A program made the position numbers and the translations under genes. The notes under the pieces are model-generated. The model did no database searches, was not told the origin of the DNA, and saw nothing but the letters and a program-made list of their open reading frames with translations. DNA of 64,000 nt, from NCBI GenBank assembly GCA_017471175.1, contig JAFUVS010000009.1, positions 62,001 through 126,000 on the forward strand, given 5' to 3'. Positions within the stretch are counted from its first letter, which is position 1; every line of letters begins with the position of its first letter. Of this stretch, positions 1-7,447 are shown piece by piece. This DNA is from Paludibacteraceae bacterium (GTDB taxonomy: Bacteria; Bacteroidota; Bacteroidia; Bacteroidales; Paludibacteraceae).

Positions 1-1677
1 GAAAAGGCTATGAAGTTCCGCGTAGATATGCACCTCAACAAGGGTGACGAGTGCGCTAACCCCATCGAGTTCGACTGGGCTAACGGTAACACCAACCCGC
101 AAGGTGCTTGCCTGTGGTACAACGTGGCTATGGTGGACGAAAACGGCAACGCTCGCGTTCCCGCTGACAAAGACTTGAAACTCACCATCATTAACCTCTC
201 CGACCAAAAAGTATCGGCTTCTGCTGACATCCGCTTCGAGTGCAAAGAACGTTCACTCGGTGACGGTCAATACACCTTCGAGGCGAATGAGACCAAAGAG
301 AAGATTATCGATGGTAAACTCATTGACCAAGTGAAACCGACTTCGCTCGTAGTTAATTTCTGCACGCCTAAGTCCTCTATGTTCATCAAGGCGGAAGTTA
401 TTGACAACGAGACTGATAGCGTCTGCTACGAAGATGTTAAACTCGTTCTTTGCGATGGTAGCGAATACGAAGATGTAGTTACCACTACCGTTATCAAACG
501 CACCATCGACTCCAAGAACCCCGAATCACTCGCTTGGAACGACACCGTTTCCGTTCGTATGGGTACCATCCTCGTTGACTCTATCTATCGCTTCACGGTT
601 ACGCCGATGATTGCAGCCGAACATCTCGACTACACCACCGTACCCGAAGAATCGCAGATCAAAGCCAACAACGGCGAGAAACTGGACTATACCGCTTTCG
701 AGGCTTACCTCGTGAAGTATTACAGCGACCTCGCTGCCGCTTACGATTCGATTGCCGCTTATGACACCATCGTTTGGGAAGCATTCAACACCAACCCCGA
801 TGTTAACGACTTCGAGAAGATTGAGGATGTAGCAGTTGCTCAAAACGTATTGGACTACGCTACCACCAAGAACATCATCCTCGCCTACACCGTTATTACC
901 GAGTGCGGCTCCGAAATCTACGACACCATCCAAGTGAACGTAGTCAAGGGCTGCGACGATGTATTCGACCTGACCACTCTGACCGACCTCTATTGGCCTA
1001 TCGCTTTCTGCGGTACTACCTATGATGTGGACGCTGTGAAGACGCAAATCCAAGCCGCTCTTGACGCTGCCGGTTCGACCGATGTCGTTACCATCCACTA
1101 CAACGGTGACACTGAATATAACAACGAGAAGATGGTTTCCGGTGATAACGTTACCTTCTATGCAAAGGTTACCAGCACCTGCGATGCTTCTACTTCCGTT
1201 ACTGCTCCGAAGACGATGACCGTTATCAACGCCGATGGTAAGGACAATCAGGTAACTACATTGCCGCTCGTCGATCCGTTCGCAGGCGATAAGATTGACA
1301 ATAAGATTCTCCTTATCGACGTGAACGCTATCAACGCAGGCAACTATGGTCTGACACTCCCGCAGTACTATGACACCGAGAATCTCGTTAAGTGGTACCG
1401 GATGGTGGGCACCGAAGCCGATCCTACAAAGGACGAACTCGTGCAAGAAGGCGGTTACTACCTCACTACCGACAATGAGAAGCTTGAAAGCGGTGCATAC
1501 TATGCTGTTATCGAAGTGGTTAACGCTGCAGCAGGTGAATGTGACGGTGAATGGCGTACTATCGTTTACGCGGTATCCAAACCCGCTACCGTAAGCAAAC
1601 GTATGATCAACGGTAAACTCTATATCGTTACAGAGGATAACGTAATCTACGATGCACAAGGTCAGAAAGTACAATAA
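1..1677 (+). CDS. Large secreted surface protein, 5' end cut off by window
   Basis: The reading frame is open to the first base (codons GAA AAG GCT precede the first ATG at 10), so this is very likely the C-terminal 558 residues of a larger protein. It is an acidic, Thr/Asp/Val-rich chain of beta-sandwich character with few cysteines (pairs near residues 15-35 and 330-345), and no catalytic motif that I recognise. It ends exactly in the tail NVIYDAQGQKVQ, preceded by MINGKLYIV, which recurs at the end of three other large secreted proteins here. The stop is followed 21 bases later by an outer-membrane barrel gene, preceded by a good ribosome site (GAGGAG). Inferred to be exported and surface exposed; function unknown. 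Confidence 0.75.
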   Translation, partial: EKAMKFRVDMHLNKGDECANPIEFDWANGNTNPQGACLWYNVAMVDENGNARVPADKDLKLTIINLSDQKVSASADIRFECKERSLGDGQYTFEANETKEKIIDGKLIDQVKPTSLVVNFCTPKSSMFIKAEVIDNETDSVCYEDVKLVLCDGSEYEDVVTTTVIKRTIDSKNPESLAWNDTVSVRMGTILVDSIYRFTVTPMIAAEHLDYTTVPEESQIKANNGEKLDYTAFEAYLVKYYSDLAAAYDSIAAYDTIVWEAFNTNPDVNDFEKIEDVAVAQNVLDYATTKNIILAYTVITECGSEIYDTIQVNVVKGCDDVFDLTTLTDLYWPIAFCGTTYDVDAVKTQIQAALDAAGSTDVVTIHYNGDTEYNNEKMVSGDNVTFYAKVTSTCDASTSVTAPKTMTVINADGKDNQVTTLPLVDPFAGDKIDNKILLIDVNAINAGNYGLTLPQYYDTENLVKWYRMVGTEADPTKDELVQEGGYYLTTDNEKLESGAYYAVIEVVNAAAGECDGEWRTIVYAVSKPATVSKRMINGKLYIVTEDNVIYDAQGQKVQ

Positions 1678-1698
1678 TAACAGAGGAGACCTAAAATT

Positions 1699-3171
1699 AT
1701 GAAAAAGACATTATTTATAATCGCATCTCTGCTTATGACCGCTTACTGCGTAGCAGACGATGTAGTAGTAGGTAATCACGCGAAACGCGACAAGAACCTG
1801 CAAGAACAAGCCGTTGATCCCGGCAAAGGATACACGTTCCAATCCGGAGATACTATCATCATCTCCAAAGATGTCAAACAATACCTTACGGGCGAAGAAC
1901 CCTCCGAATGGGTTTACTACGTTCGCCATATCGTGGGCCAAGTGGGAGGCAAACGCTTCCCGCAAGGCATCCTCGTGCAAGGTATTAACTCGTGGGTAGG
2001 TCCCGATGGACTCTTCCTCGTAGGTGCAACCAAGCAGACCCCGGAGTCAGTTAAAAAACAAGACAAAGACCGTACGAAAGTAGATCAACGTCGCGAAGAA
2101 CTCCGCCAAATGGATAAAGATCGCCGCAAAGCTATCGAGCAAGATGCGAAGCGCAACGATGCTACCGTTATTGACACGGATCGCACCCGCCCCGTTCGTC
2201 AGCCCGAAGAACAGAACCGTCCGGCTATCCGTGATGAGAAGCCCGTTCAACAACCGCAACAGGAAGTAACTCCTGCTGTGGTTGAAACAGAGCCTACTCA
2301 AGAAACACTCACGGTTGAAGAGGCGAAGCCCATCGAGAACGATATCACTATCAGCCGCGAAATTGATCGCTTCACGATCGGTCTGCGTGGCGGTGTGGCT
2401 TCTATGCTCCACAACACCATCGATGGTGCCAACGGCAAGTGGAAACCCGGCTTCGATGTTCTTCTCGACCTCCAGTATGCACACTACTGGCAGAAAGATG
2501 ACCAGCCCTCTTATGGTATCTTGACTGGTCTCTCCGCAGGTTATGTCCGCAGCGGCGTTACCTCCGAGGCTTCTTACACCATTCCTTCCAACGGTCAGCT
2601 CAGTTATGATATCAACGTGAAGGCTAAAGAGTACGATGGTGCTGTTCTGCTCGAAGTACCCTTGATGTTCTCGATGATCACCAACAATGGTTTCTTCTTC
2701 AACGTAGGTCCGCGCTTCCAACTCCCCGTCTTCAACCACTACAAAACAACGGTTGATAACGCTACCGAAAAGAACATTGTTGCCCTCTTCGAGAAAGAAG
2801 GCGTAAAGGTTGATGACCAAATCGTTACCGGTCGTGCCGATTCTGAAAAAGGAACAAATCAAACAATCAGCAAGTTCAACCTCCTCCTCGGTGCTGAACT
2901 CGGTTACGAATGGCGCTTGAAGAACAATAACTCCTTCGGTTTGGGCGTTTACGCTAACTATGGTCTCTTCTCGCTCTACAAGAACGATGCAGCAGGTCAA
3001 ATCCTTGACATCACCGCTCCTAATGGTACTTCCTTCGGTAAGGTGGACATCAACTCCATCACCAAAACCTACACCCAAGGTGACGGCTTCAAGTTCGGTG
3101 CCAAGAACGGTTTGGACTTCTTCGACTGCGGTATCAAACTGAACTACAGCTTCAACTTCGTTAAACAATAA
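1699..3171 (+). CDS. Outer-membrane beta-barrel protein with periplasmic charged linker
   Basis: 490 residues. A signal peptide (residues 1-19, MKKTLFIIASLLMTAYCVA) is followed by a small globular part to about residue 113, then a highly charged Lys/Arg/Asp/Glu/Gln stretch (about 115-215, likely coiled or disordered), then alternating aromatic/hydrophobic strands from about 225 to the C-terminal Phe-rich strand (YSFNF), as in 8-12 stranded Bacteroidota barrels. It lies 21 bases after the preceding large secreted protein and is followed by a strong terminator, so the two form a transcription unit. I infer a role in anchoring or exporting the preceding protein, by analogy with SprB/SprF-type pairs; this is not shown by the sequence alone. 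Confidence 0.72.
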   Translation: MKKTLFIIASLLMTAYCVADDVVVGNHAKRDKNLQEQAVDPGKGYTFQSGDTIIISKDVKQYLTGEEPSEWVYYVRHIVGQVGGKRFPQGILVQGINSWVGPDGLFLVGATKQTPESVKKQDKDRTKVDQRREELRQMDKDRRKAIEQDAKRNDATVIDTDRTRPVRQPEEQNRPAIRDEKPVQQPQQEVTPAVVETEPTQETLTVEEAKPIENDITISREIDRFTIGLRGGVASMLHNTIDGANGKWKPGFDVLLDLQYAHYWQKDDQPSYGILTGLSAGYVRSGVTSEASYTIPSNGQLSYDINVKAKEYDGAVLLEVPLMFSMITNNGFFFNVGPRFQLPVFNHYKTTVDNATEKNIVALFEKEGVKVDDQIVTGRADSEKGTNQTISKFNLLLGAELGYEWRLKNNNSFGLGVYANYGLFSLYKNDAAGQILDITAPNGTSFGKVDINSITKTYTQGDGFKFGAKNGLDFFDCGIKLNYSFNFVKQ

Positions 3172-3315: not shown

Positions 3316-3346
3316 TTGTGTATCCCGAAAAGTAGTAGTACTTTTG
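3316..3346 (+). promoter_or_regulatory. Bacteroidota-type promoter, TTG-N20-TACTTTTG
   Basis: TTG at 3316-3318, 20 bases, then TACTTTTG at 3339-3346. The open frame downstream could be extended to a TTG at 3344, but that codon lies inside the -7 box, so it cannot be the translation start. Confidence 0.7.
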
Positions 3347-3373: not shown

Positions 3374-5113
3374 GTGAAACCTGTATCCTTCCTTTCTCGC
3401 TCAACTCGCGCACTCTGCCGGGTTAGGTTTTCTTCGCTACGGCTCTTTATTTTGGCTGTCGTGTTAGGCTGTGCTATCGGCTCTGCCAGTGCACAATCTA
3501 CTTGTGCAGAAGCCTTTAAGGTCGGCACGGGTGTCGAAGAACGTATCTACCGTACCGGCATCACGTGGTACACCGCCTTTACCTATGACCTTCCGATGCA
3601 CGTTGTTTATATCCCTGACCACCCCGAGTTGGCTCCTGATACTCTTTCTGCCGAGATTGATTTTAAGTGCGACGGACCCTTAGCACGTGACATTGCCGAT
3701 GCCATCGGCGAACCCGGCGATGACTCATATGTGGAACTGCCTATCATTCGTAATTTCAAGAAAACCAACATTGACGGCAAGATAGCCTACGTACTCGATA
3801 TAGAGGCTCGTTACCGCAATATGATGGCTGGCGGCGGCATCACCCGCAATGTACAGGCTTGGGTGATGATTGACGTTCCTTCCGCAGGCGATGTAACGAT
3901 TCAGCCTGACCTCAACTCCCGCGCTTGTTTGAATGAAACGGAAATAATCTCCCTCCCGCGCACGATTCCCGTGCAGGCAGATGACGAAGAAACAGTTTTT
4001 ATGCTCCCATTCAGCCTGTGGACAGAGGACAGCGTCCGCTTCATCTGGAACGGTATTCACGAACCCCTTGAAGTATGGGTCGCTAAGCAGGACTGCCATT
4101 TCCTGCCCGTTTCGACCGATGAGAACTTCCTTGGACACCGTACTATAAAGCCCGAAGATACGTGGAAACTGACTGTGGACTCCATCGACAACCTCATCGG
4201 CGAATGGACTAACGGCGGTATGTACTACGTCAAGTTCATATCCAAGGAAGCTGCCGAACTGAAAATCGAAATCGTTCCCGAAAAAGAAGTGGACGGTACT
4301 CGTCTCCGTTACGATGAAAAAGTCAAAGTCAAACGCGATGCAGCAGACCTCTTCTATTTCTCCACTAAGTGGGAAGCCACCCGCTTCACGACCCCATCTA
4401 AACATATCTGTACCGCCTATTTCGGCACAACACCCGAAATTGATATATCCAATCCCGCCACTTATTTCGATTCCGTTCGGATGGATATAGCCGCCGATGG
4501 CTCCCATTACCTTGAGTTCTCCAACACCGAAATGAAAGAATGGATTTGCTCGCACTCCACCGATGGTTACGTCTATATGCGCCTTCGTACCAATCGCTCT
4601 ACCTCACTGACCGCCTCGGCTTGGACGGATGCCAACGACTGCGCTATCGACAACTCGTGGCAACTGCGTTCCGGTCGTCCTATCCAATTCGATGCGAATA
4701 AGTACATCGAGAGTTATATCTACCGTATGCGCTACGCCGACTGGGAGGGGTACGACATCAACATCGAACGTACCGACAATACAGGCAAGACACTCGACCT
4801 CGGTATGTGGAAGAAATGCTCAACGAGCAAACCTACCAAAGCGCAGTGTATCAGCAAGTCCTTTAAGTCCACTTCCGGTGCTACCTCGTGGACTATCCCG
4901 CAAGCGGACGTGGACAAGTGGGGCAAGAGTTACCCCTCGGCTGACGGCGTGTTCTACTACTGGAACTTCAATTTCAATAAGGCAGCCTCCGCTGTCGTCT
5001 TCACCTCCGGCAGACCCGAAGAGGTCGAACCCGAAGAACCCGACTGCGAAGTTACCGTCACAGCAGGACCGCAAACACCCCTTACTGGCACCGTCCAAAT
5101 CACCGTTGAATAA
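3374..5113 (+). CDS. Secreted protein ending in a half beta-repeat
   Basis: Start placed at GTG 3374 because the longer frame runs into the promoter at 3339-3346; this gives a signal peptide ending GSASAQ near residue 39 of a 579-residue protein. The mature part is a Cys-containing beta-rich chain with no catalytic motif that I can name; a domain from about residue 300 repeats Trp/Tyr/Phe strands. The last 22 residues (CEVTVTAGP...GTVQITVE) look like the first two strands of a bacterial repeat (InlB-B/Flg_new_2 type) that then stops; the missing strands appear after the signal peptide of the next gene. There is no T9SS C-terminal domain. First of a three-gene secreted set with 5175 and 5743. 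Confidence 0.68.
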   Translation: MKPVSFLSRSTRALCRVRFSSLRLFILAVVLGCAIGSASAQSTCAEAFKVGTGVEERIYRTGITWYTAFTYDLPMHVVYIPDHPELAPDTLSAEIDFKCDGPLARDIADAIGEPGDDSYVELPIIRNFKKTNIDGKIAYVLDIEARYRNMMAGGGITRNVQAWVMIDVPSAGDVTIQPDLNSRACLNETEIISLPRTIPVQADDEETVFMLPFSLWTEDSVRFIWNGIHEPLEVWVAKQDCHFLPVSTDENFLGHRTIKPEDTWKLTVDSIDNLIGEWTNGGMYYVKFISKEAAELKIEIVPEKEVDGTRLRYDEKVKVKRDAADLFYFSTKWEATRFTTPSKHICTAYFGTTPEIDISNPATYFDSVRMDIAADGSHYLEFSNTEMKEWICSHSTDGYVYMRLRTNRSTSLTASAWTDANDCAIDNSWQLRSGRPIQFDANKYIESYIYRMRYADWEGYDINIERTDNTGKTLDLGMWKKCSTSKPTKAQCISKSFKSTSGATSWTIPQADVDKWGKSYPSADGVFYYWNFNFNKAASAVVFTSGRPEEVEPEEPDCEVTVTAGPQTPLTGTVQITVE

Positions 5114-5174
5114 TAATACTTCGATAACGCTGAATACCCTGATAATTCTGAATACTCCGAAACTCTAAAATACT

Positions 5175-5684
5175 ATGAAAAAATACATCTTTATAGTTGC
5201 CCTCTTTGCTTTGAGCCTGACCGTGAAGGCGCAGACTGAAGCCGTTGCACACTGCGGACAGATTGTTACTCTGACTGCTAAACCCGCCGAAGGATTCTAT
5301 TTTGTCCGCTGGTCCGACAACGTAACCGACAACCCCCGCGAGGTGGAAATCTCCTCTGAGACCACCGTCACTGATTTTGTCGCCATCTTCGAGGGAATGG
5401 AGTACACTATCACGGTCAAGGTCAAAGAAGACGGAACGGGTTCGGTCGATCAAACCTCATTCATCGGCAAGGCGGGCAGTCAAATCACGCTTGATGCCGT
5501 TGAGTCCGACCCCTGCTATCAGTTCGACCACTGGGAAGATGCCGATGGTAATAGCCTATCTACCGATAAAACCTTCGCTTATACCATAGCGAAAGAAACA
5601 ACCGTCTATGCCGTCTTCACCGATCGCGAGTTCAAAATCAAAGCCACTGCCGACCACGGTACCGTGGACATACAAGTGCAATAG
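5175..5684 (+). CDS. Small secreted repeat protein, begins and ends in half repeats
   Basis: 169 residues. Signal peptide 1-20 (ending LTVKAQ). The mature protein starts with HCGQIVTLTAKP...FVRWSDNVTDNPR, the second half of a bacterial beta-repeat, continues with one complete repeat (about residues 75-150, with FDHWEDADG), and ends with EFKIKATADHGTVDIQVQ, the first strands of a third repeat. It has no sorting domain and no enzymatic motif. It lies between two ORFs that supply the matching missing halves. The 61-base spacer before it contains two imperfect 18-bp copies (GATAA..CTGAATAC). Function inferred only as a surface or periplasmic binding or assembly module. Confidence 0.65.
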   Translation: MKKYIFIVALFALSLTVKAQTEAVAHCGQIVTLTAKPAEGFYFVRWSDNVTDNPREVEISSETTVTDFVAIFEGMEYTITVKVKEDGTGSVDQTSFIGKAGSQITLDAVESDPCYQFDHWEDADGNSLSTDKTFAYTIAKETTVYAVFTDREFKIKATADHGTVDIQVQ

Positions 5685-5742
5685 TTCAACCTCGCTCGCA
5701 GGCACCGACTTTATTTCGATAACCCTTAAATTTTTCTGAACC

Positions 5743-6534
5743 TTGCCCAAACGGCTTATCATATTATTCCTTTCAGTCCTCTCCGTCAGTTTGCTTCGTG
5801 CCGATGAATGGATGCAAGCGGGTCTGCACTGCGGACAGATTGTAGTACTCACCGCCACTCCCGAACCCGACTACCGATTCGACAGTTGGTCGGACGGCAA
5901 TACCGACAACCCGCGTCGTGTGGAAGTAACCAAGGCAATGGAACTGCAAGCCCTCTTCGTGTCGGCTTGCGAGGCGCAATACACCCTCCCCGTTGATTAC
6001 CTATTCTCGCAGATGTACGTTCTCAATCGCAACCGGCTCAAGGATATGGGCTATGCCCCTCTCGCATCCGAGGTGCGCTGGTACCGCGTGACAGGCGATA
6101 TAGATAACGTTGTCGGCGGCACGGGAGATGATGTGTTGGTAGCCACAGGCTATTACCTCTCTCGCGACGGACTGCCCGGCGGACAGTACTACGCCCAGTG
6201 CAATTTCCCCAATCCAGAATCCGAGACGTGCGACATTGTGTTGCGCAGTCCTGTCTATCGTATATCGCTCACCGGTCTGACCGATGCCGAAGGAGCAAGC
6301 CTGCACCTCGTTCCCACTGTCTCCGACAAGGGGCAGACACTCACCCTCATAGGTATGCCCGTTACCGAATCGGCTACCGTCTCCGTCTTCGATATGAGCG
6401 GACGACTCCTGTGGAGGTCGCAGTCGGACGCTACCGACACCATGACCTTCGCCGCACAAGCCGCTGCCGGCTGCTACCTCGTACACGTCAAGACCTCACG
6501 ACTGGATCAAACTCTGCTCTATATTGTTCGTTAA
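5743..6534 (+). CDS. T9SS-sorted protein starting with a half beta-repeat
   Basis: 263 residues from TTG 5743, the only start that keeps a signal peptide (LIILFLSVLSVSLLRA, cleaved near residue 20). After the signal comes LHCGQIVVLTATP...WSDGNTDNPRRVEV, the second half of a bacterial repeat and nearly the same as the start of the previous gene. Residues about 185-263 form a typical type A T9SS sorting domain: SVFDMSGRLLW, then AGCYLVHVKT and a basic end QTLLYIVR. It should therefore be exported across the outer membrane and attached. The following barrel gene begins 4 bases after the stop codon, implying translational coupling. Confidence 0.68.
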   Translation: MPKRLIILFLSVLSVSLLRADEWMQAGLHCGQIVVLTATPEPDYRFDSWSDGNTDNPRRVEVTKAMELQALFVSACEAQYTLPVDYLFSQMYVLNRNRLKDMGYAPLASEVRWYRVTGDIDNVVGGTGDDVLVATGYYLSRDGLPGGQYYAQCNFPNPESETCDIVLRSPVYRISLTGLTDAEGASLHLVPTVSDKGQTLTLIGMPVTESATVSVFDMSGRLLWRSQSDATDTMTFAAQAAAGCYLVHVKTSRLDQTLLYIVR

Positions 6535-6538
6535 TACC

Positions 6539-7447
6539 GTGAAAAAGACCCTGCTTACCATCCTTCTTATTCTTGCAGCTTTGCCCCTCTTGGCGCAAGG
6601 ACGCAGCGGTCTGCAGGTAGGCTTGCACGCAGGTACGAATATGCGCTTCGGCAAGGACATCGCTTTCCGCCCCGGAGCCGATGTGGCGCTCGATTTGCGC
6701 TACGTCTTCCTCGCCCCCCTCGGCTACACCTCGCGCGTGGGCTTTCAAGTAGGTGCCGGACTCGGCTATATGTCTTCCTATCAGCAGTCATCTATCACCT
6801 CCCAAACCGACCTTACTGCCTATTCCACAGCCTCTGATGGTACGCCCATGGCAGTCCCTATGCGTTATACCGTTTCTGCCGATGCTAACTATCAGGACAA
6901 GCAGTGGGAACTCACCGTTCCGCTCCTTCTCTCTTTCCGCTTCGGCGCATTTGCCCTTGACCTCGGGCCGCGCTTCGCAGTCGGTATCAGCCCCTCCTAT
7001 TCGCTTGCCTTGAAGAACGGCAATGTGGACGCTTACCTTGTGGACTACGATGTACACATAGCCAACGACCCTTCCGTCGGCACTATCCCCACCAGCGGTC
7101 TCTCCTTTGGCGGCAACTCGTCCGACACCTCGTTCGCACTCTACGGCGTGGCGGCTCTCGGTTACGAATGGCGATTAGGTCAGAAAGGTGTTTCTGTCTC
7201 ACGCTACAACTCACCCCACGCCCTTGAAGCCACCGAACGTTCCGTTACCATCCAACTCGTGGCTGAATACCCCCTCTGGCAAAACCAACAGGCAACAATG
7301 CCCATAGTCAGACTTTCCGCTACCGCTTTCCCTGCTCCCCAAATAGAGTTGCCCGCACTCGTCAAACCTCTTTTAATCGGTGTGCGCGTCGCTTACACCA
7401 TCTTCCCCGGGTCCGACAAACGTTACCGCTGCTACTGCTTCCGATAA
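6539..7447 (+). CDS. Outer-membrane beta-barrel protein
   Basis: Start chosen at GTG 6539, which immediately gives a signal peptide (MKKTLLTILLILAALPLLAQG). The mature protein is built of alternating strands with Gly-Tyr/Phe turns (GLHAGTNMRFG, VGAGLGYMSSY, LLSFRFGAFALDLGPRF) and resembles the barrel at 1699-3171 in order: GLxxG start, GPRFxxxxxP middle, GYEWRL near the end. It is 303 residues, without the charged linker. It follows a T9SS-sorted protein directly (5743-6534). Probably paired with it on the outer membrane; specific function not known. Confidence 0.72.
   Translation: MKKTLLTILLILAALPLLAQGRSGLQVGLHAGTNMRFGKDIAFRPGADVALDLRYVFLAPLGYTSRVGFQVGAGLGYMSSYQQSSITSQTDLTAYSTASDGTPMAVPMRYTVSADANYQDKQWELTVPLLLSFRFGAFALDLGPRFAVGISPSYSLALKNGNVDAYLVDYDVHIANDPSVGTIPTSGLSFGGNSSDTSFALYGVAALGYEWRLGQKGVSVSRYNSPHALEATERSVTIQLVAEYPLWQNQQATMPIVRLSATAFPAPQIELPALVKPLLIGVRVAYTIFPGSDKRYRCYCFR

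Follow-up and report, generated by a model that had tools for sequence, protein, structure and literature searches.

Three consecutive genes of a Paludibacteraceae bacterium, here named A, B and C, encode secreted proteins whose facing ends carry the two halves of an InlB B-type beta repeat, and sequence comparison assigns these half repeats to one PF18998 domain that is divided between chains. The genes lie in a stretch of 64,000 nucleotides (assembly GCA_017471175.1, contig JAFUVS010000009.1, positions 62,001 to 126,000), hereafter the window, in whose coordinates positions are given. Considering the conserved split, the adjacency of the two halves, the cysteine pattern, the sorting tail on the last member and the existence of natural fusions, it appears likely that A, B and C form one secreted assembly through interchain fold complementation. 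An earlier note on this DNA had described a beta repeat cut at the same loop, twice, across three open reading frames (ORFs) lying in three different frames; both descriptions are confirmed, the former by the sequence, the ORFs and Pfam matches.

The divided repeat

The half found at the ends of A and B (the N-half, or plug) is ~20 residues long and matches the initial strands of the repeat, while the half found in B and C a few residues past the likely signal-peptide cut (the C-half, or socket) comprises the remaining strands. The last gene, C, additionally ends like a substrate of the type IX secretion system (T9SS). The features of the locus are as follows.

3374..5113, + strand: gene A, with a signal peptide and a C-terminal N-half (plug)
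5045..5110, + strand: N-half (beta1-beta2) at the C-terminus of A, CEVTVTAGPQTPLTGTVQITVE; the first codon, 5045-5047, encodes Cys
5175..5684, + strand: gene B, with a signal peptide, a C-half (socket), one complete repeat and an N-half (plug)
5253..5393, + strand: C-half at the N-terminus of mature B, opening with the conserved Cys codon 5253-5255
5403..5624, + strand: complete Flg_new_2 repeat of B; the Cys of its CYQF motif is at 5514-5516
5625..5681, + strand: C-terminal N-half of B, REFKIKATADHGTVDIQVQ, for which no strand is predicted in cis
5743..6534, + strand: gene C, with a signal peptide, a C-half (socket), the C body and a T9SS-like tail
5830..5961, + strand: C-half at the N-terminus of mature C, opening with the conserved Cys codon 5830-5832
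6361..6531, + strand: C-terminus of C resembling a T9SS sorting tail, weakly and under the curated Pfam cut-off
6539..7447, + strand: gene D, outer-membrane-barrel-like, often found after C

Protein A ends in PDCEVTVTAGPQTPLTGTVQITVE followed by the stop codon; B begins after its signal peptide with AHCGQIVTLTAKPAEGFYFVRWSDNVTDNPR, continues with the full repeat and closes with its N-half and the stop codon; and C begins after its signal peptide with GLHCGQIVVLTATPEPDYRFDSWSDGNTDNPRR. PF18998 (Flg_new_2, divergent InlB B-repeat) matches two stretches of B, one complete and one partial (59.7 bits, cut-off 23.6), and in C it covers only profile positions 21-69 of 73 (26.4 bits, cut-off 23.6). 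Joining the end of A to the start of B gives 30.3 versus 28.2 bits and extends the match toward the profile start (positions 10-55), and joining the end of B to the start of C gives 33.6 versus 29.1 bits over positions 4-67 of 73. The 1070-residue protein against which the earlier note had compared these halves does exist (G000:C12:122-124 kb, open frame 1077; genomes are denoted by G and loci by L).

The same operation, applied to the 88 junctions between neighbouring genes collected from the genus, yields a full-length repeat in 83/88 and a score gain in 88/88, with a median of 61.7 bits compared with 50.1 for the C-half alone. The test is partly circular, since this profile had also served to pick out the N-half segments. 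Control joins of these C-halves with ends taken from other genes are full-length in only 1/88, gain score in 54/88 and have a median of 51.2 bits, and chance is rejected on the full-length counts.

With respect to the fold, the InlB B repeat is described in PMC8900821 as a beta-grasp fold with an extended loop in place of the beta2-beta3 helix; since by sequence the cut follows the beta1-beta2 hairpin, it probably falls in the beta2-beta3 connection. An AlphaFold model of mature B, based on an alignment of 33 sequences, reaches pLDDT 95 and places strands in the C-half and the complete repeat and none in the terminal N-half. In the model of the fused tail of the single-ORF protein of G140, the N-half part has strands 2-8 and 12-15 (repeat pLDDT 85-95, pTM 0.49). 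The strandless N-half of the AlphaFold model speaks against a closure of B on itself, in which the plug would occupy the socket of the same chain. A Foldseek comparison of the B model with the InlB B-repeat structure 2y5p gives a probability of 0.93-0.98 and a TM-score by target of 0.66-0.69 with a weak E of 0.2-0.5; no match of the B model reaches E 0.001. InlB B-repeats are the matches of highest probability for this model; the best 50 of its 346 matches include Gram-positive pilins at lower probability and no FimA/Mfa or usher pilin. For the fused G140 tail, the 50 matches listed include long multi-domain beta proteins and nothing informative.

Recurrence, cysteine pattern and selection

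A search of 61 genomes with B as query found relatives with the same layout, and searches with C-family and small-adaptor queries covered 178 genomes of the genus (uncultured Paludibacteraceae). The resulting counts are lower bounds, the loci being chosen chiefly for a C-type or adaptor protein that they encode. C-half starts were counted in 94 of 99 candidates, the five dropped (L031, L071, L077 and two reads of L089) having a first repeat that is no true half or a cut frame. A same-strand upstream ORF precedes 90 of these 94 genes and ends in an N-half (score of at least 8) in 85/90, against a background of 82/717 other ORFs. This background is an overestimate, as 24 of the 25 top-scoring control ORFs are, by eye, N-half genes missed by the classifier. 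When the genes are clustered at 70% similarity, 58/63 clusters consist entirely of members that pass. At a score of at least 5, the 88 junctions lie in 51 loci of 48 genomes, so that at least 48/178 genomes have one; the genes are separated by a median gap of 30.5 nt, distributed over the three frames as 32/30/26, and 93/94 C-half-start genes carry their own signal peptide by a crude test. The classifier misses C-half genes whose match starts before profile position 15, and among those missed, 11 more N-half/C-half neighbours and the adaptor of L031 support the pattern. The earlier note asked whether homologous loci encode one protein or three: these junctions are all split at the same loop, and relatives encoded by one gene also exist.

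Five full-length relatives with names are all Bacteroidales assembled from metagenomes, three being Paludibacteraceae, and their sources include red deer and yak rumen. The window's own genome contains 133 repeat matches at E<=1, and in 34 stretches surrounding repeat matches the classifier kept no other C-half start. Across the order (393 genomes, 206 genera), C-family queries and queries of a signal peptide plus C-half gave, among the matches listed, profile-start matches only in G000 and G063 of the same genus; at most 6 (C-family) or 14 (signal peptide plus C-half) candidates per genome were scored under strict cut-offs, and distant versions may therefore be missed.

Some loci depart from the common layout. 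An ORF of L069 (6467-9534; G000:C4, ~141.5-144.5 kb) closes with a strand that resembles half a repeat and has a Cys, FTVTVNQNCSITVQ, and L174 (1913-5871) has a similar end, YTIHIYQDCTVTVE; in both, the next secreted ORF opens with a complete-looking repeat, also with a Cys, which may represent a second junction type. L025 (8037-9987; G014) holds a socket-plus-tail adaptor lacking a plug gene upstream and then a second C-half gene, a possible orphan socket.

Cysteine is a regular companion of the split. The socket Cys occurs at repeat positions 23-25 in 94/94 counted C-halves versus 22/210 other full repeats. Where an N-half is preceded by complete repeats, the last of these carries a Cys at positions 35-37 (39/39 cases, against 26/210 others). 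A proteins lacking such a preceding repeat have a Cys immediately ahead of the N-half, ~24 residues ahead of it within a VPC motif, or in its second strand. By the looser measure of a last Cys within 80 aa of the C-terminus, 87/88 N-half enders qualify and so do 356/635 other ORFs, so that nearness alone means little. Among intact neighbouring repeats of all loci collected, both Cys sites are occupied in 18 pairs, neither in 598 and only one in 4 (Fisher p 1.6e-30, an optimistic value because several pairs are homologous; the mixed case L311 looks like an alignment slip). Such covariation is the pattern expected of a disulfide between adjacent repeats, which at split junctions would join two chains. 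All five counted minimal adaptors (5/5) have a single mature Cys. The socket Cys is probably paired with a Cys in or just ahead of the plug in an interchain disulfide.

Purifying selection acts on B, as observed in seven pairs of B genes for which nonsynonymous (dN) and synonymous (dS) divergence was estimated over the last 20 codons (the N-half) and the whole gene. In the last 20 codons, dN is 0 with dS 1.4-2.2 in three pairs (window/L161, window/L160 and L160/L167), whereas L021/L166 has dN 0.022 and dS 0.732, L187/L188 dN 0.116 and dS 1.207, L022/L182 dN 0.045 and dS 0.151 (ratio 0.30), and L190/L191 are identical. Whole-gene dN/dS ranges from 0.05 to 0.21 across the seven pairs.

One-gene relatives are represented by L198, L199 and L200. 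In G140 and G193, a single ORF runs from complete repeats through an in-frame joined repeat and the C body to a T9SS-like tail, with a D-like ORF next, and the socket Cys site is occupied by Tyr. A tree of C bodies does not firmly place G140/G193 and nests the fused protein of G006 within the split group (support 99/93), which suggests re-fusion; the L156 locus (G064) appears to be split.

A proposed assembly and its alternatives

In the proposed mechanism, an InlB B-type beta-grasp repeat would be permanently divided between neighbouring genes, the beta1-beta2 hairpin ending one protein and the remaining strands opening the next mature protein. Following export by Sec, B's socket would receive the plug of A and C's socket that of B, binding the chains head to tail and rebuilding two complete repeats, each probably locked by an interchain disulfide from the socket Cys to a Cys in or near the plug. 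A T9SS tail would be present only on C or, in other species, on a small socket-plus-tail adaptor, so that C would carry A and B with it across the outer membrane, and the assembly would probably be held at the surface with D, the outer-membrane protein (OMP) encoded next. That half domains complement each other to link the proteins, with the last carrying the sorting signal, was one of two options offered in the earlier note, and conservation, joined-repeat scores, natural fusions and covarying cysteines argue in its favour.

The distribution of tails accords with this model. Leaving aside C-half ORFs that precede another counted one, 53/56 have a type IX-like tail (52 recognised by pattern, L027 by eye), and the remaining 3/56 end in an N-half. 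On the 88 N-half enders, a wide tail pattern gives two matches, both within the N-half itself, compared with 139/635 other ORFs, and a narrower first version of the pattern matched 0/88; in the window, a T9SS tail was looked for in A and B and none was found. In an alignment of 24 C proteins and two fused tails (A7), 11/26 members reach PF18962 at E<=0.01. Adaptors of 114-124 aa (L030, L031, L201, L202 and L203) comprise barely more than a signal peptide, a C-half and a tail. The translocon marker SprA_N was detected in 14/14 genomes tested, including the window's own, and in T9SS transport, substrates with a C-terminal domain (CTD) are carried by PorV and SprA, as stated in PMC10994853. The simplest reading would be that one tail serves the whole A-B-C assembly as a sorting signal in trans. 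In the open-licence literature, as represented by titles and abstract openings, no account was found of a repeat split between secreted proteins or of a T9SS tail supplied in trans.

Plugs are borne by a variety of heads. The 18 plug-carrying heads scanned include 6 with endonuclease I, 5 with BspA-type leucine-rich repeats (LRR) above cut-off and 1 that is mainly HYDIN-like immunoglobulin (Ig), the others having repeats only, weak matches or nothing. Two plug-ending heads stand in a row ahead of one socket gene in L024, L030, L177, L178, L201 and L210, the first head being cut at its start in all except L024, which implies that a plug need not pair with the product of the next gene. A broader and more tentative proposal, whose likelihood we place slightly short of even, is a general plug-and-socket secretion code in which any plug-bearing passenger (BspA-type LRR, endonuclease I, Ig-like or other heads) would be captured by a socket protein, locked by Cys and exported via a type IX tail on another polypeptide, with a single module for export and anchoring serving interchangeable heads. 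Endonuclease I (PF04231) recurs as the plug-carrying head in L177, L178, L184, L186, L197 and L201, suggesting a surface or secreted nuclease carried by the split-repeat system.

Regarding the genes around the junctions, A (579 aa) has no Pfam match and possibly an alternative upstream start, TTG at 3344. The ORF of D runs from TTG 6524, with GTG at 6539 fitting a signal peptide better; D itself has no Pfam match, and one of two scanned relatives matches PF13568. By a loose classifier, a D-like ORF follows 33/54 C-type ORFs, one more being cut by the locus end. Just 5' of the locus, window positions 10-3171 encode a large single-chain protein with a C-type body and a YDAQG tail (gene end at 1677), followed by an OMP (PF13568). 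This arrangement parallels A+B+C followed by D and suggests that A+B+C together match one such protein.

Several observations weigh against the proposed assembly. In G014, no N-half lies upstream of the first adaptor gene; the second C-half gene there, which was missed by the classifier and is not counted among the 90, follows a T9SS-tailed gene. In G138 (L205) a tail likewise closes the upstream gene, and scores <8 are found at three junctions of L195 and L196. One of the 88 N-half enders, the A protein of L210, lacks a nearby Cys, and matches to DsbA, DsbB and VKOR were found in 0/14 genomes of the genus, implying that a disulfide would need another oxidant or form outside. The T9SS tail that the earlier note assigned to the last ORF is seen in C, yet its match to PF18962 is weak (19.2 bits, below the cut-off of 27). 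Finally, the AlphaFold model of the isolated C-half has four strands at pLDDT >90, so that it may be stable or fold without a plug; the strandless N-half also has pLDDT >90, which is hard to interpret.

These points bear on the rival explanations. It is unlikely, to a similar degree in both cases, that the half repeats serve as adhesive or cap elements at the protein ends and fold alone, in proteins that are unlinked and whose order is historical, or that complementation is mainly from B to B, producing a pilus-like fibre with A forming its tip and C its base. The confident strands of the C-half alone and the G014 C-half starts without an N-half upstream would suit cap elements, whereas an N-half that is strandless alone, the near one-to-one adjacency and a Cys pair matching an inter-repeat bond do not. 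A fibre is suggested by B carrying both halves with its plug strands unpaired in cis in AlphaFold, by the missing socket of A and by the missing plug of C; however, B-type lengths vary from ~160-190 aa (33 aligned) to 306 (L024), 461 (L173) and 525 aa (L177), unlike a repeated pilin, and nothing shows B in excess.

Breakage of a single ancestral gene, whose pieces would now be decaying or acting independently, was the other option of the earlier note and is now considered very improbable. The one-gene relatives L198, L199 and L200 fit it, but the break point is constant throughout the junctions, the Cys residues are conserved, both halves are under purifying selection, the parts have separate signal peptides with gaps in three frames, and the G006 fusion falls inside the split group of the C-body tree; a pseudogene is contradicted by the constant break point and by low dN/dS in the tested pairs. 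Even less credible is programmed frameshifting or read-through joining the halves into one polypeptide, for which the short gaps might speak; it is rejected because a signal peptide lies between the halves in nearly all cases by the crude test and the gaps occur in all three frames.

Significance and relation to known systems

If interchain complementation with a tail in trans is true, a chain could take the type IX route without encoding a sorting signal itself, since a separate half-domain adaptor would bring one to folded partners. With its many heads and very small adaptors, the mechanism would also be a naturally occurring counterpart of engineered split adhesin domains, coupling proteins through a split domain, and it would account for a family of short secreted ORFs of gut Bacteroidales that are otherwise puzzling. 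The covariation of the Cys sites offers a ready genetic test.

The A/B/C repeat has its sequence family and fold in common with Flg_new_2 / InlB B-repeats (PF18998; PDB 2y5p). The InlB B repeat is a single-chain domain, whereas the repeat of A, B and C appears to be shared by two secreted proteins and its socket has a Cys. In donor-strand pili, including the FimA/Mfa1 type V fimbriae of Bacteroidales, the incomplete domain of one subunit is completed by strands of another, and subunits take tip, middle and anchor roles. The trans completion of an incomplete domain, predicted from sequence for A, B and C, resembles this arrangement; unlike donor-strand pili, A/B/C would use a beta-grasp rather than a pilin fold, a C-terminal hairpin as donor, other cargo heads, a Cys pair and a T9SS tail on the last member. 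The T9SS-like ends of C, weakly matched in the window's own protein, and of the small adaptors recall T9SS type A substrates (CTD proteins), and SprA is present; A and B differ from such substrates in having no tail and would obtain one from another polypeptide. Interprotein disulfides are reported for the Bacteroidota envelope in PMC12635249, which describes SprF-GldK and PorG-GldK bonds in Flavobacterium johnsoniae. Those bonds tie outer-membrane proteins to a periplasmic track, whereas the bond predicted for A, B and C would lock a domain shared by surface proteins.

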